64,000 nucleotides of DNA from Methanogenium sp. S4BF (GTDB lineage Archaea; Halobacteriota; Methanomicrobia; Methanomicrobiales; Methanomicrobiaceae). The notes under the pieces are model-generated. The model had not been told where the DNA came from. It ran no database searches and saw only the letters and a list, made by a program, of their open reading frames with translations. The position numbers and the translations under genes are program-made. The stretch lies in the NCBI RefSeq assembly GCF_029633965.1, contig NZ_CP091277.1, positions 372,001 to 436,000 on the forward strand, read 5' to 3'. How positions within the stretch are numbered: the stretch's first letter is position 1; each line of letters starts with the position of its first letter. Positions 8,271 to 19,288 of this stretch are shown here, in pieces.

Positions 8271-9938
8271 GTGGCTTCTTTTATTCAGGCTGCGGCAGGA
8301 AGAGAACCCTGCGATACTATTTTTACGAATGCCCGGGTATTCTGTCCGTTTACCGGTGAGTGGGAAGATAATGCATCGTTTGGTGTAAAAGATGGGCGTG
8401 TGGCAGGATTTGGGGCGTATACGGCAGAACAGACCATCGATCTGCGGGGGAAACGCGTCATCCCCGGACTGATTGATGCGCATGTACATATTGAAAGCTC
8501 TCTTCTGACCCCGGCAGAGTATGCCCGGGCGGTGATCCCGCACGGGACCACCACGGTGTTTGCCGATCCGCATGAGATCGCGAATGTCGCAGGCACGAAG
8601 GGGCTTAGGTATATGCTGCGTGAGAGCTCGGAGGTGGCGCTTGATATCAGGCTGATGCTTCCGTCCTGCGTCCCGGCGACACCGCTTGACCGGGGAGGGG
8701 CTGTTCTCTCCTGCCGGGACCTTGCACCCTTCACAGAAGAAGACGGGGTGACCGGCATCGGTGAAGTGATGAACGTGCCGGGCGTCCTCGCAGAAGACAC
8801 GGACCTGCTCTGCAAGATTGGTCTGTCTCCGGTTGTGGACGGGCATGCACCGCTTCTTTCGGGTGAAGCACTCTGTGCATATATTGCAGCAGGCATCCAG
8901 AGTGACCACGAATGCACGGGTGCCCGTGAGGCTGCAGAGAAACTCCGGCGCGGGATGTACATCATGCTGCGTGAAGGGTCTACAGAGAAGAACCTCAGTG
9001 CTCTGGCTGAGGTGGTGACGCCTGCCACCGCTCCCCGGTGTTGTTTTGCAACCGATGACCGGCATGCAGATATGCTCGCAGAAGACGGGCATATTGACGA
9101 TTGTATCCGCAGAGCTGTTGACGCAGGCATTGAACCGGAGACTGCCTACCGGATGGCCACCCTCTCTGCTGCAGAACGATTTGGCCTGAACGACCGGGGT
9201 GCGCTCGCACCCGGCCGGCGTGCCGATTTCTGTGTGCTGGATGACACCGGACCCTGCACCGTGACGGACACCTATATCGGGGGAGTACGATGGACGGACT
9301 CCGGATACCGCCGCCCGGACGTTTTGCATGTACCGTTCTCCTGTGCCCCTCTGACAGAGGAGTCCATTGCCATCCACGGGTCCGGGACAGCCCGTGTGGT
9401 GGGCCTGGTACCGGGTCAGATTCTCACGCATGAACTATCAGCTGAGGTTGACGGAGCGGCCCTGCCTGACTCCTCCCGTGATCTCCTGAAACTGGTTGTC
9501 TGTGACCGCTACCACCGTGCCGGCTGCGGTGTTGGGATTGTGAACGGGTTTGGTATCCTGGACGGTGCCATTGCGGCAAGTGTGGCCCATGACTCCCATA
9601 ATCTCATCGCAGTCGGAAGTGATGATTCCTCTATCATCCGTGCCGCTGAGATGGTTATTGCAGCAGACGGCGGCATGGCGGCGGTCTCAGGAGATAGATC
9701 TGCGTTTCTGCCGCTGGAATGCGGCGGCCTGATGTCATCTCTCCCGTATGATGAGGTGGCAGCGTCTCTGCGGTCCCTTGAGGCATGCATCCGCACAACC
9801 GGCTGCATCAATAATCCGTTTATGTATCTCTCTTTTTGTGCACTCACGGTCATTCCGGAGATCCGGGTGACAGAACGCGGGGTCTTTGATGTGGGCGCCT
9901 TTGCCGATGTGCCACTCTTTTCTTCCCGTATAGAATAA
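8271..9938 (+). CDS. ade: adenine deaminase (555 aa)
   Basis: Amidohydrolase that converts adenine to hypoxanthine and ammonia in purine salvage. The metal-binding HxH lies in GLIDAHVHIESS near residue 70, followed by FADPHEIANV, DGHAPLLSG, and the FATDDRHADM motif; the C-terminal half has the GCGVGIVNGFGI and AHDSHNLI motifs of the Ade family. Length is normal. The start is GTG at 8271, directly after the lipoprotein stop. It converges with the minus-strand acyltransferase-like gene, with only 4 bp between stops. Confidence 0.95.
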   Translation: MASFIQAAAGREPCDTIFTNARVFCPFTGEWEDNASFGVKDGRVAGFGAYTAEQTIDLRGKRVIPGLIDAHVHIESSLLTPAEYARAVIPHGTTTVFADPHEIANVAGTKGLRYMLRESSEVALDIRLMLPSCVPATPLDRGGAVLSCRDLAPFTEEDGVTGIGEVMNVPGVLAEDTDLLCKIGLSPVVDGHAPLLSGEALCAYIAAGIQSDHECTGAREAAEKLRRGMYIMLREGSTEKNLSALAEVVTPATAPRCCFATDDRHADMLAEDGHIDDCIRRAVDAGIEPETAYRMATLSAAERFGLNDRGALAPGRRADFCVLDDTGPCTVTDTYIGGVRWTDSGYRRPDVLHVPFSCAPLTEESIAIHGSGTARVVGLVPGQILTHELSAEVDGAALPDSSRDLLKLVVCDRYHRAGCGVGIVNGFGILDGAIAASVAHDSHNLIAVGSDDSSIIRAAEMVIAADGGMAAVSGDRSAFLPLECGGLMSSLPYDEVAASLRSLEACIRTTGCINNPFMYLSFCALTVIPEIRVTERGVFDVGAFADVPLFSSRIE

Positions 9939-15179: not shown

Positions 15180-15740
15180 ATGAAACACGACCGTGTCTGC
15201 CCGATGTCCGAGGCCCGGCATATGGACAATTTCTTCCGGCGTTTTATTCATCCGCCGAAATACATTTTCGGGCGGTTCATTCATACCGGGGATACGGTTA
15301 TTGATATTGGATGTGGTCCCGGTTTTTTCTCCTGCCCGATAGCCCGGATGGTGGGGGAAACCGGGAGGGTGATTGCCATTGACCTGCAGGACGGGATGCT
15401 TGCCATGCTTAGGGAGAAGGCTGCAAAAGAAGGTGTCTCTTCAGTCATTGAGGTGCGCAAGGCGGAGTTATCAAGACTGAATACCGGGTGCAGGGGTGAT
15501 GCGGACTTTGCACTTGCATTCTATGTGATGCACGAACTGCCGGATATTCTCCAGGGATTCCGTGAGGTGGCAGCGGCGCTGCGTCCCGGTGCCCGGATGC
15601 TTGTCGCCGAACCGTTTATGCATGTGTCTGCCGGTGAATACGATGAAACCTGCCGCCTTGCAGGTGTGGCAGGGTTTGCTGTGGTGGAGCGGCCACGCAT
15701 TCTCTTTTCAAGGGCCGTTGTACTGGAAAAAATGGTCTGA
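15180..15740 (+). CDS. class I SAM-dependent methyltransferase (186 aa)
   Basis: Rossmann-type methyltransferase with motif I VIDIGCGPGFFSCPIA, an acidic end of beta 2 (VIAIDLQDGML) and the post-motif LAFYVMHELPD. Closest general resemblance is to UbiE/Methyltransf_11 enzymes. The ATG at 15180 follows CAGGTG and is preferred to one nine codons earlier. The N-terminus carries a cysteine and HMDNFFRRFIHPP, which may bind a metal or substrate. Substrate unknown. Confidence 0.85.
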   Translation: MKHDRVCPMSEARHMDNFFRRFIHPPKYIFGRFIHTGDTVIDIGCGPGFFSCPIARMVGETGRVIAIDLQDGMLAMLREKAAKEGVSSVIEVRKAELSRLNTGCRGDADFALAFYVMHELPDILQGFREVAAALRPGARMLVAEPFMHVSAGEYDETCRLAGVAGFAVVERPRILFSRAVVLEKMV

Positions 15741-16057: not shown

Positions 16058-17224
16058 TTATTCTGAAACCATTTTGTGCATTAAATCCATGACTCCAGCC
16101 TTTTCTTTCCGCTGTCTGCGCCGGGCACCGCCCATCCCCATCCCCATCTCCATCGGCGCTGATCCATAGAGTTCCCTGTTGAGCCGGTTGTTGAGTTCAT
16201 CAAAGATCATCTTGTATGCAGGGCAGTGGGGGTCAACCGCCTCCACTCTCCCCCCGGTGGGCACAATGGCATTGTAGGGGCAGCCTCCGCGGCAGTATCT
16301 GATATGTGCACACTCATTGCAGTGCTCATCCACGAAGTCTTTGAATGCGTGCATCAGTTTCCATGCACGGGACTCTGCCAAATCTGCTTTTGTCGGACGG
16401 TCATAGACGGTGCCCATCACCCATTCGGGCATGCCCACAAACCGGTAGCAGGGGTAGATGCTGCCGTCGGGACCGACAGCAAAGGTGTTTCCCATGCAGT
16501 CGTTGAAGGTGCAGACATTCCCCGTCCGTGTGAATACAGACTTGAAAAGGTCATTTATATTCATAATCTCTGCGGAATTCAGGTTTTCCAGGTATTTGTC
16601 GAGGAGATAAATGAGCAGGTCTCCGTATTTTTCGGGTGCCAGTGCCCATTTCTCCGGGTCGTCGCCGCGGAGGGACGGAAGCGCCGGATGCAGTTTGAGC
16701 ACATATCCGTTCTCCATGAAGAAGGTGAATATCTCCTCACGGTGGTCAACGGACTGTGAGGTGAAGGTGCAGATGAACCGGACGGAGAGGCCGTTTTCCT
16801 GTGCGATTTTGTAGCCGTGCATGGTCCGGTCAAAGTATCCCTCCCCCCGCTGAATGTCATTTATTTCTTTCGGCCCGTCTATGGAGGAGCCGACAGGGAC
16901 CTGATATGCAGCAAAAATCTGTGCAAGTTCAGGTGTCATCCGCCAGAGATTTGTCTGAATTGCAAATGCCGGTTTCAGGTGTGCCAACTCTTCGGAGAGC
17001 AGGGGAAGCGCCTCACGGAAGAAGTCGGGCCCCGCAAGCAGGGGTTCTCCCCCATGGAATGTGACGGTCACCTGCCGGTCGTCAAAATCTTTGAGCCAGG
17101 CGGCCACTTCCCGGATGGTCTCCATGCTCATCACCGGTGAGTCCTCTTCTGAACTCCAGCAGTAGTGACAGTTAGACGGACAGCCAAGGGTCGGTATCAG
17201 CATCACATGGAAGGGACTTTTCAT
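16058..17224 (-). CDS. radical SAM/SPASM protein, peptide-maturase or sulfatase-maturase-like (388 aa)
   Basis: The N-terminal radical SAM motif C-x3-C-x2-C is at residues 15, 19 and 22 (LGCPSNCHYCW). The C-terminal half has a SPASM-type cysteine set (CTFNDC, YPCYR, HCNECAHIRYCRGGCPYN, HCPAY) for auxiliary [4Fe-4S] clusters. This architecture belongs to anaerobic sulfatase maturases and ribosomal-peptide-modifying enzymes. From memory it fits a methanogen family of putative peptide modifiers (Mhun_1560-like) paired with short Cys-rich peptides. A divergent Cys-rich mini-ORF begins 26 bp from its start. No sulfatase gene is in the window. The Met/Gly-rich tail before the last basic stretch is unusual. 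Confidence 0.88.
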   Translation of the reverse strand: MKSPFHVMLIPTLGCPSNCHYCWSSEEDSPVMSMETIREVAAWLKDFDDRQVTVTFHGGEPLLAGPDFFREALPLLSEELAHLKPAFAIQTNLWRMTPELAQIFAAYQVPVGSSIDGPKEINDIQRGEGYFDRTMHGYKIAQENGLSVRFICTFTSQSVDHREEIFTFFMENGYVLKLHPALPSLRGDDPEKWALAPEKYGDLLIYLLDKYLENLNSAEIMNINDLFKSVFTRTGNVCTFNDCMGNTFAVGPDGSIYPCYRFVGMPEWVMGTVYDRPTKADLAESRAWKLMHAFKDFVDEHCNECAHIRYCRGGCPYNAIVPTGGRVEAVDPHCPAYKMIFDELNNRLNRELYGSAPMEMGMGMGGARRRQRKEKAGVMDLMHKMVSE

Positions 17225-17250
17225 ACCCTGATTTTTTGGCCTGCTTATCT

Positions 17251-17430
17251 ATGAAGGTTCGGATTGGCATGCCAAAGGCGAAGGAACGGAAGAAAACCCA
17301 TGCAGGGCTTTGGTGTTTGTGTGCCATTTGCTGTACAGATTCCCGGTGCGGTATTTGTGTTCGGTGCGTGTATCAAAAAAGAAATATTAAAGCTCTCCCA
17401 TCCCAAAAACCGTTTTATGAAAAGAGATGA
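17251..17430 (+). CDS. candidate cysteine-rich precursor peptide (59 aa)
   Basis: A mini-ORF divergent from the radical SAM gene. It has a basic, cysteine-free leader (MKVRIGMPKAKERKKTHAG) followed by a compact core with seven cysteines in 19 residues, spaced C-x-C-x2-CC-x4-C-x2-C-x2-C (LWCLCAICC...RCGICVRC), then a basic tail. It lies in the otherwise empty 192 bp before the sensor kinase ATG, overlapping that gene by 14 bp. No convincing ribosome-binding site precedes ATG 17251; AAGGT at 17254-17258 could serve an alternative ATG at 17269. Leader-core layout beside a peptide-maturase-like enzyme suggests a substrate, but codon bias is weak. Confidence 0.42.
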   Translation: MKVRIGMPKAKERKKTHAGLWCLCAICCTDSRCGICVRCVYQKRNIKALPSQKPFYEKR

Positions 17431-19288
17431 CAAACAGCACCGTTCCCTTCAGACGAGTTTTGGTCTTGTCATCTTTCTGGTATTTATCTTTCTGACAGTA
17501 TCAGTTTCTGTAATCCTCTTCACCTCAGTCGAAAACAGCATCGTCTCACAGTTTGACGAGAAGATGGATCAGACAACAATCTCAGTCACCCACTCCGCTA
17601 TTCTCGCTGACAAAGGGCTTATTCTCTATGAAAAGGCGTATGATCAGCAGCTAAAGGACGCATTTATTCCGTTTCTTGATGCCTATGACCGGTCCGGAGG
17701 GAATCCGGCTGCAATGGATCTTGAGAGCCTGAAAGCTGAGATGATCCGTTCCCCCGACTGGGATATTGACCTCTATATCATCAATGAAACCGGTGTTATA
17801 GAATACACCACATTTGAGCCGGATCTGGGTTTTGACTTTCGTACGATTCCCGGTTTTTATTCGTCAATCACCACAATCCGAGAAGGGAATGATTTTTCCG
17901 CAGACAGGGTATGCACCAGCCTCTCCGATCCTTCGTATGGGAAAAAATATGCCTATATGCCCACCCCTGACCACCGGTATCTGCTGGAACTGAGTTTCAC
18001 GTCTGATTCCTTTATGGAAGGGCGCAAGAACTTCCCCTATACCGCCATATCTGATATGCTGATGGAGGATGATCCCTCCCTTCGTGATGTTTCCATCTTT
18101 GATGTCACCTATCGCCGGATAGCAGGCCATGGTGAATCTGCGGAAGGTGAGACGCTCGCGCATGTGAAGCAGGTCTATGCTGACCATGTCGGGTTTGATG
18201 TCATTGATAAACCGAATGAAACCATCACCCGCTATCTCTATATCGACCTGGATAACGAAGGATATCCCTCATCGTCCCAGATGAATCTTGTCGGTGAGAT
18301 CGTCTTTTCGACACAACCCCTTCGTGATTCAATAAATTTTTTGCTCCTGAATGTGGTCGTTCTTTGTATCCTGGGGGTGGGGGTTGGAATATTTGCTGCC
18401 TATTATACCTCCTATTTCCTGACACGTCCGCTAAAGGCGATTATATCGGATATTGACTATATCGCAGACGGTCACCTTGACCACCCGATTCAGGAGGCGA
18501 AGTCATCGGAGACGGAAAATCTCCGGCGGAGTGTAAATATCCTTGTTGAACGCCTGAATTCTGAAATTCTGAGGCTCAAACAGACTTCCGGGGAGCTGGA
18601 CTGCGAACTGAAACGGACACAGGAGGTGGAGAGGGCACTCAGGAATGCAAACACGAAGCTGGGCCTGCTCTCGGGCATTACCCGGCATGATATTCTCAAC
18701 CAGATCCGGGCGCTCACGATGATCTCTACTCTGCTCAAGGAAGAGATGGGTAATGACCGGAAAGCAGAGACCCCGCTGAGAATAATGGATGATGTTATTG
18801 AAACGATGGAGGGTCAGATTACCTTTACACGGGAGTATGAACTGCTGGGATCAAAGACCGCAGAATGGATAAATGTCGCGTCACTGGTTACAGAAGTGGG
18901 AGAAGGCACCGGATTCCGTCAGATCACAACAGAGATTACGACCGGCAGTCTTGAGATATTTGCTGACCCGCTTCTGAAACGGGCTGTCTTCAATCTGTTT
19001 GACAATGCCGTACGCCACGGTGAAACAGTAACCCGGATGAGGGTTTCATTCCGTGAAGGGGGTGATGGGGGTACGCTGATATTTGAGGATGACGGGTGTG
19101 GTGTCCCGGAGAATATGAAAGAGAAGATTTTCTGGAAGAAGACCGGCAAAAATACCGGATATGGGCTTTTCCTGGTGCAGGAAATCCTCTCCATCACCGG
19201 CATGAGCATCCGTGAGACGGGACAGAAAGGAACCGGGGCACGCTTTGAGATACGGATTCCGGAAGAGGGCTACCGGTTTGGAGAATAG
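17417..19288 (+). CDS. membrane sensor histidine kinase with HAMP domain (623 aa)
   Basis: First membrane helix at about residues 14-36 (GLVIFLVFIFLTVSVSVILF), an extracytoplasmic sensor of about 270 residues (Cache-like size and layout), a second helix (LLLNVVVLCILGVGVGIFAAYY), then a HAMP domain (LTRPLKAIISDIDYIADGHLDHPI), coiled coil, phosphoacceptor GITRHDILNQIRAL, and ATPase motifs NLFDNAVRHG, EDDGCGVP and TGYGLFLVQEI. The ATG at 17417 starts just before the first helix; the open frame upstream to 17264 is not credible as protein. No cognate regulator is adjacent. Confidence 0.9.
   Translation: MKRDDKQHRSLQTSFGLVIFLVFIFLTVSVSVILFTSVENSIVSQFDEKMDQTTISVTHSAILADKGLILYEKAYDQQLKDAFIPFLDAYDRSGGNPAAMDLESLKAEMIRSPDWDIDLYIINETGVIEYTTFEPDLGFDFRTIPGFYSSITTIREGNDFSADRVCTSLSDPSYGKKYAYMPTPDHRYLLELSFTSDSFMEGRKNFPYTAISDMLMEDDPSLRDVSIFDVTYRRIAGHGESAEGETLAHVKQVYADHVGFDVIDKPNETITRYLYIDLDNEGYPSSSQMNLVGEIVFSTQPLRDSINFLLLNVVVLCILGVGVGIFAAYYTSYFLTRPLKAIISDIDYIADGHLDHPIQEAKSSETENLRRSVNILVERLNSEILRLKQTSGELDCELKRTQEVERALRNANTKLGLLSGITRHDILNQIRALTMISTLLKEEMGNDRKAETPLRIMDDVIETMEGQITFTREYELLGSKTAEWINVASLVTEVGEGTGFRQITTEITTGSLEIFADPLLKRAVFNLFDNAVRHGETVTRMRVSFREGGDGGTLIFEDDGCGVPENMKEKIFWKKTGKNTGYGLFLVQEILSITGMSIRETGQKGTGARFEIRIPEEGYRFGE

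Follow-up and report, generated by a model that had tools for sequence, protein, structure and literature searches.

Which substrate does a radical SAM/SPASM enzyme of a methanogen act upon when a short Cys-rich reading frame lies beside its gene? The question arises from a 64,000-nucleotide window of archaeal DNA (C1:372001-436000 of the single-contig genome G000, 2,513,916 bases), whose closest named relatives belong to Methanogenium (84-88% identity). A preliminary description of this window paired the enzyme with the Cys-rich frame, as a maturase and its peptide. Our analysis retains the enzyme, discards the peptide and points to a large protein, McrA, as the substrate.

Most biological methane is made and consumed by methyl-coenzyme M reductase (MCR), whose alpha subunit is McrA, and unusual modified residues affect the stability and activity of this enzyme. 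One of them, didehydroaspartate, was reported in MCR in 2016, and enzymes are known for several other MCR modifications. We lean towards reading the gene in the window as that of an MCR-maturation enzyme, an anSME-type radical SAM/SPASM dehydrogenase that would act on McrA, with didehydroaspartate as its most likely product.

The enzyme gene and its intergenic neighbourhood

The features discussed are as follows.

16058..17224, minus strand: gene for a TIGR04083-family radical SAM/SPASM enzyme, 388 aa (TIGR04083 profile, fold, 11 FeS cysteines, mcrA linkage in relatives)
17248..17266, minus strand: conserved block (AATCCGAACMTTCATTGA), probably a promoter or leader serving the enzyme gene (alignment of six Methanogenium loci)
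17251..17430, plus strand: 59-codon Cys-rich ORF, judged a chance frame and not a gene (broken frame in congeners, overlap with a TATA-like box and start codon, base rate)
about 17381..17391, plus strand: TATA-like box of the divergent histidine-kinase gene (gatatattaaa-like, conserved in 6/6 Methanogenium loci)
17417..19288, plus strand: sensor histidine kinase gene, divergent neighbour (HATPase_c 59.6 bits; HAMP below cut-off)

The 388-aa ORF is a real TIGR04083-family enzyme gene. A profile search matched it to TIGR04083 (rSAM_pep_methan, the Mhun_1560 family) over the full profile (1-376/376) at 678.4 bits, over twice the cut-off of 300, so that the Mhun_1560-like family named in the preliminary description was the right one. 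The second-ranked family, the anaerobic sulfatase maturase TIGR03942, follows far behind at 167 bits against a cut-off of 349, and the PapB-type maturase model NF047865 reaches 101.6 bits (4.9e-29) against 340. Genome G000 carries a single strong TIGR04083 copy, the window enzyme, at C1:388061. The cysteines first read from the sequence hold up throughout the family: the radical SAM residues C15, C19 and C22 (CxxxCxxC) and eight SPASM-type auxiliary-cluster residues (C238, C243, C259, C302, C305, C311, C315 and C334) are all invariant across 123 orthologues. The predicted enzyme model has a mean pLDDT of 78.5 and is closest to the structure of anSMEcpe (TM 0.74/0.79), which is also the nearest solved structure by sequence search (1.1e-28). 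Viral contigs and plasmids yielded only remote relatives, and a literature search found no mention of TIGR04083 or Mhun_1560. The family belongs to the same organism group as the window enzyme; its label, 'peptide-modifying', is a prediction without an assigned substrate, and the evidence presented here favours McrA.

The ORF at 17251-17430 has the 59 codons and seven cysteines ascribed to it (MKVRIGMPKAKERKKTHAGLWCLCAICCTDSRCGICVRCVYQKRNIKALPSQKPFYEKR), but that description is sound for the sequence and not for the gene. Stops or indels break the frame in all five other Methanogenium loci aligned (L051, L053, L056, L058 and L062), and none of its cysteines is conserved there. Its ATG falls inside an 18-20-nt block (17248-17266) that immediately precedes the enzyme start. 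This block is conserved in six Methanogenium loci, did not appear in the other genera examined, and is possibly a promoter or regulator site. The ORF also runs across the histidine-kinase gene's TATA-like box and start codon; the reading frame of this gene, from the ATG at 17417, is conserved in the congener alignment. Cys-dense ORFs are common: in 1.39 Mb of related DNA we counted 15 ORFs of 40-130 aa that pack seven or more Cys into 24 residues (~1 per 93 kb), and the window itself has five ORFs with at least six. Searches of NCBIfam, Pfam and PHROGs gave no family match. Because of the broken congener frames, the non-coding conservation, the abundance of Cys-dense ORFs and the lack of a family match, we judge the ORF to be a chance reading frame rather than a gene.

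Another small peptide is not apparent in its place: no small ORF is conserved in the flanks of 66 enzyme loci, the enzyme's own antisense frames aside. With the ORF broken in congeners, no conserved small ORF and the base rate of chance frames, the Cys-rich peptide was rejected as the enzyme's substrate, and the pairing of the two in the preliminary description does not extend to orthologous enzymes.

Two observations concern the same neighbourhood. A neighbouring gene at window positions 15180-15740 encodes a small SAM methyltransferase and is weakly CpaM-like (corrinoid-protein-associated; 53.6 bits against a cut-off of 180). In Methanogenium cariaci JCM 10550 (L058:6001-7166), frameshifts spread the enzyme gene over several frames, reflecting either a pseudogene or draft-sequence errors.

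Linkage to mcrA and mgmA

TIGR04083 occurs in 177 of the 199 genomes sampled from the window's class. Flanking ORFs were clustered at loci chosen ahead of any hypothesis, and McrA, McrG and McrD families were found beside the enzyme. In many relatives, the gene is directly beside mcrA, at 0.1-1.6 kb, in at least five families including ANME-2c. Eight of 58 unselected Methanomicrobiales loci, drawn from 3 of 25 genera, have mcrA within 2 kb, an outcome with a probability of about 5e-5 under random placement. For example, the end of McrA lies 123 bp before the enzyme in L108, the gene order in L079 is mcrA, mgmA, enzyme and mtr genes, and the enzyme gene is convergent with mcrA in L050 and L225; L092 is an mcrA-linked example from a different family. 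The enzyme is directly 3′ of mcrA with a spacing of 174 bp in the ANME-2c locus L221, and the gap is about 5 kb in Methanotrichaceae (L184) and ANME-2d (L223 and L224).

The same arrangement arose by insertion within Methanosarcinaceae. In ten genomes of genus g68 (L188-L190 and L213-L219), the enzyme gene comes immediately 3′ of mcrA and precisely separates mcrA from the gene that comes next in the non-carriers L211, L212 and L220. In L189, the enzyme is followed directly (8836-9201) by a truncated second mcrA 3′ end of 113 codons, which begins at FFGFDLQDQC and scores 202 bits to TIGR03256. This truncated copy is a scar of enzyme-gene insertion at mcrA. We rejected the idea that an mcrA-enzyme cassette reached g68 by horizontal transfer from a distant source: the enzyme tree places g68 beside Methanosarcina (98*), so relocation inside Methanosarcinaceae is simpler.

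A second MCR-related gene, mgmA, is beside the enzyme in three families (L079, L185 and L226; TIGR04014 637-653 bits against a cut-off of 360). MgmA C-methylates a glutamine of McrA (PMC11796369). As a control, the MgmA profile was found in the tested Methanomicrobiales and Methanotrichaceae except G117, and not in G500, our M. acetivorans control (assignment inferred); M. acetivorans is without methylglutamine (PMC11796369).

These linkages vary among lineages. The enzyme tree largely follows genome groups and the mcrA-adjacency label needs nine changes on it; thus, adjacency was gained or lost several times. No order-wide conserved neighbour of the enzyme was found, and most Methanomicrobiales genera, among them that of the window, have the gene away from mcr. 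The window's own genome has mcrA at C1:1481898, about 1.09 Mb from the enzyme. With synteny this variable, the link to mcr is visible in part of the lineages only. Nonetheless, it is mcrA that is linked as a substrate gene in relatives, and not a gene for a RiPP-type modified peptide, as had been suggested, so the likely substrate is the large protein McrA. We regard a link between the enzyme and MCR as highly probable.

In L226 (7907-9975), genes for an MrpORP-like Fe-S carrier fragment, a DUF134-like protein and a ferredoxin/ParA-like ATPase lie between the enzyme and mgmA, and similar Fe-S-carrier-like gene sets occur in L194, L227 and L228. These genes possibly supply Fe-S to radical SAM enzymes.

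Co-occurrence with didehydroaspartate

Didehydroaspartate is present in MCR I and II of M. marburgensis and in M. barkeri and M. acetivorans, and absent from M. wolfeii, M. kandleri, M. formicicus, M. thermolithotrophicus, Methermicoccus, ANME-1 and Ca. Ethanoperedens (PMC9081873, Table 1). It is also present in ANME-2c and ANME-2d (PMC12413448). In M. acetivorans, the McrA tryptic peptide from Leu461 to Arg491 bears it at position 470, together with thioglycine465 and S-methylCys472 (PMC7058361). No enzyme is known for it (PMC7581889), and we found none named in the newer literature. A literature search did not find the modification reported for any Methanomicrobiales MCR.

Genome groups were assigned by comparing their McrA with solved structures, which identified ANME-2d (f31; 1223 bits to 9qqt), ANME-2c (f38; 93-98% to 9qm5), ANME-1 (f10; 999 bits to 3sqg) and Ca. 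Ethanoperedens (f37; 1140 bits to 7b1s). We found TIGR04083 in the M. acetivorans control (G500 C1:4090849-4091973), of two responding genomes the only one over the cut-off, and in all sampled Methanosarcina-type genomes (g83) that bear mcrA. Nine of ten ANME-2c genomes with mcrA carry it, as do most of those of ANME-2d. No match exceeded the cut-off in ANME-1 or in the M. jannaschii control, and the gene is absent from six genomes of Ca. Ethanoperedens. Gene and modification are therefore both present in M. acetivorans, the genus Methanosarcina, ANME-2c and ANME-2d, and both absent in ANME-1 and Ca. Ethanoperedens. This is agreement in six of six lineages compared, a small and partly nested set of contrasts into which M. 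barkeri enters by genus only. If M. marburgensis, which contrasts with M. wolfeii in this modification, is without a TIGR04083 gene, a second didehydroaspartate enzyme must exist.

Other known modifications were rejected as the product. N-methylhistidine, thioglycine and methylarginine are too widespread for the gene's pattern; S-methylcysteine has an enzyme of its own and occurs in Ca. Ethanoperedens, where the gene is missing; Methanosarcina lacks 6-hydroxytryptophan; and methylglutamine is made by MgmA. Within Methanosarcinaceae, no McrA residue covaries with enzyme presence, and McrA near the LQDQC aspartate does not differ between genomes with the enzyme and those lacking it; thus, the target residue cannot be read from the sequence alone. 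The McrA of the window organism carries the target motif (FFGYDLQDQCGSANS). The TIGR04083 enzyme is the best candidate so far for didehydroaspartate formation in MCR, and we give this specific product a slightly better than even chance.

One Methanosarcinaceae genome that keeps mcrA contains a TIGR04083 homologue with an in-frame TGA (G391:C47:64335-65450; 210 bits), which is either a decayed copy or one with a recoded codon.

Candidate chemistry and alternative readings

From the family, fold class, cluster ligands, mcrA/mgmA linkage and six-lineage match, we infer a substrate, a target residue and a chemistry. The target would be the aspartate of the McrA LQDQC motif (Asp470 in M. acetivorans numbering). 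The [4Fe-4S] cluster held by C15, C19 and C22 would cleave SAM to give a 5′-deoxyadenosyl radical, which would take a beta hydrogen from the Asp. The second electron would go to the SPASM clusters, as in anSME, and loss of the alpha proton would then leave a C-alpha=C-beta bond. The site is buried in finished MCR, so the enzyme presumably acts on McrA ahead of assembly.

The proposed chemistry has its nearest precedent in anSME, where the 5′-deoxyadenosyl radical removes the C-beta hydrogen of Cys or Ser and the second electron passes to the SPASM clusters. The two enzymes share fold class and cluster ligands, and anSME (4K36-4K39) likewise oxidises a side-chain C-beta. However, they are about 24% identical, and anSME has an Asp right after its third SPASM cysteine (YPCD; the catalytic Asp277), where the window enzyme has an invariant Tyr260 (YPCY). 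This replacement would be consistent with a different deprotonation step. MgmA (TIGR04014) and Mmp10/MamA are also radical SAM enzymes, and they act on McrA, the proposed substrate here; but they are cobalamin-dependent C-methylases, whereas the TIGR04083 enzyme has SPASM clusters, has no B12 domain and is a predicted desaturase. PapB-type ranthipeptide maturases (NF047865) are radical SAM/SPASM enzymes as well and functionalise the C-beta of Asp, forming a thioether. They work on small precursor peptides, and the window enzyme falls far below their cut-off.

Two readings fare worst. That the enzyme is an anaerobic sulfatase maturase, forming formylglycine, would suit its closest solved structure and its TIGR03942 score; yet that score is far under the family cut-off and the anSME Asp is replaced by Tyr. 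The preliminary description had noticed no sulfatase nearby, and in fact PF00884 has no match in the whole genome, so an anSME function is refuted for the window organism and we give this reading next to no credence. Maturation of a RiPP encoded by the ORF at 17251-17430 or by another small gene would agree with the NCBI family name, and SPASM peptide-maturase relatives do score well against the enzyme. It is nonetheless very improbable given the frame broken in five of five congeners and the 66 loci without a conserved precursor gene; moreover, unlike typical RiPP cassettes, the enzyme gene occurs almost throughout the order and is passed on vertically.

Two further readings carry somewhat more weight. 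The enzyme could modify MCR at another residue or subunit, through a modification so far undetected in the MCRs of Methanomicrobiales, Methanosarcinales and ANME-2. The linkage to mcrA and mgmA by itself names no residue, McrA near the LQDQC aspartate does not change with the enzyme, and MCR modifications are still being discovered, such as the 3(S)-methylhistidine of the gamma subunit (PMC12413448). We consider this unlikely, if far from negligible: didehydroaspartate, already known and lacking an assigned enzyme, matches the gene in all six lineages, and its chemistry, a two-electron oxidation of a side chain with no transfer of methyl, is what an anSME-like enzyme would be suited to. It is also conceivable, but rather improbable, that the enzyme serves another protein or a small molecule and came repeatedly to lie near mcr owing to high expression there. 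The distance from mcr in most Methanomicrobiales genera speaks for this reading, and several genomes have Fe-S-carrier-like genes (MrpORP-like, DUF134) near the enzyme. However, expression alone accounts poorly for separate arrivals at mcrA in five families and for adjacency to mgmA where mcr is more distant, and the sampled carriers without a full mcrA are all fragmented assemblies.

We are thus mildly inclined to see in TIGR04083 the missing didehydroaspartate synthase of MCR, a SPASM-type dehydrogenase acting on a large enzyme, and to expect the modification in the window organism. The genetically tractable M. acetivorans has a copy of this named candidate, which makes the question testable. 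If the assignment is true, SPASM dehydrogenases would extend beyond small peptides to a central metabolic enzyme, and the list of parts needed to make correctly modified MCR in other hosts, that of methanotrophs included, would be complete. Nature also offers a comparison: the complete genome G001 (f2 g9) has two mcrA copies and no TIGR04083 match over the cut-off in a genus that mostly carries the gene, and this natural loss is a useful test case.
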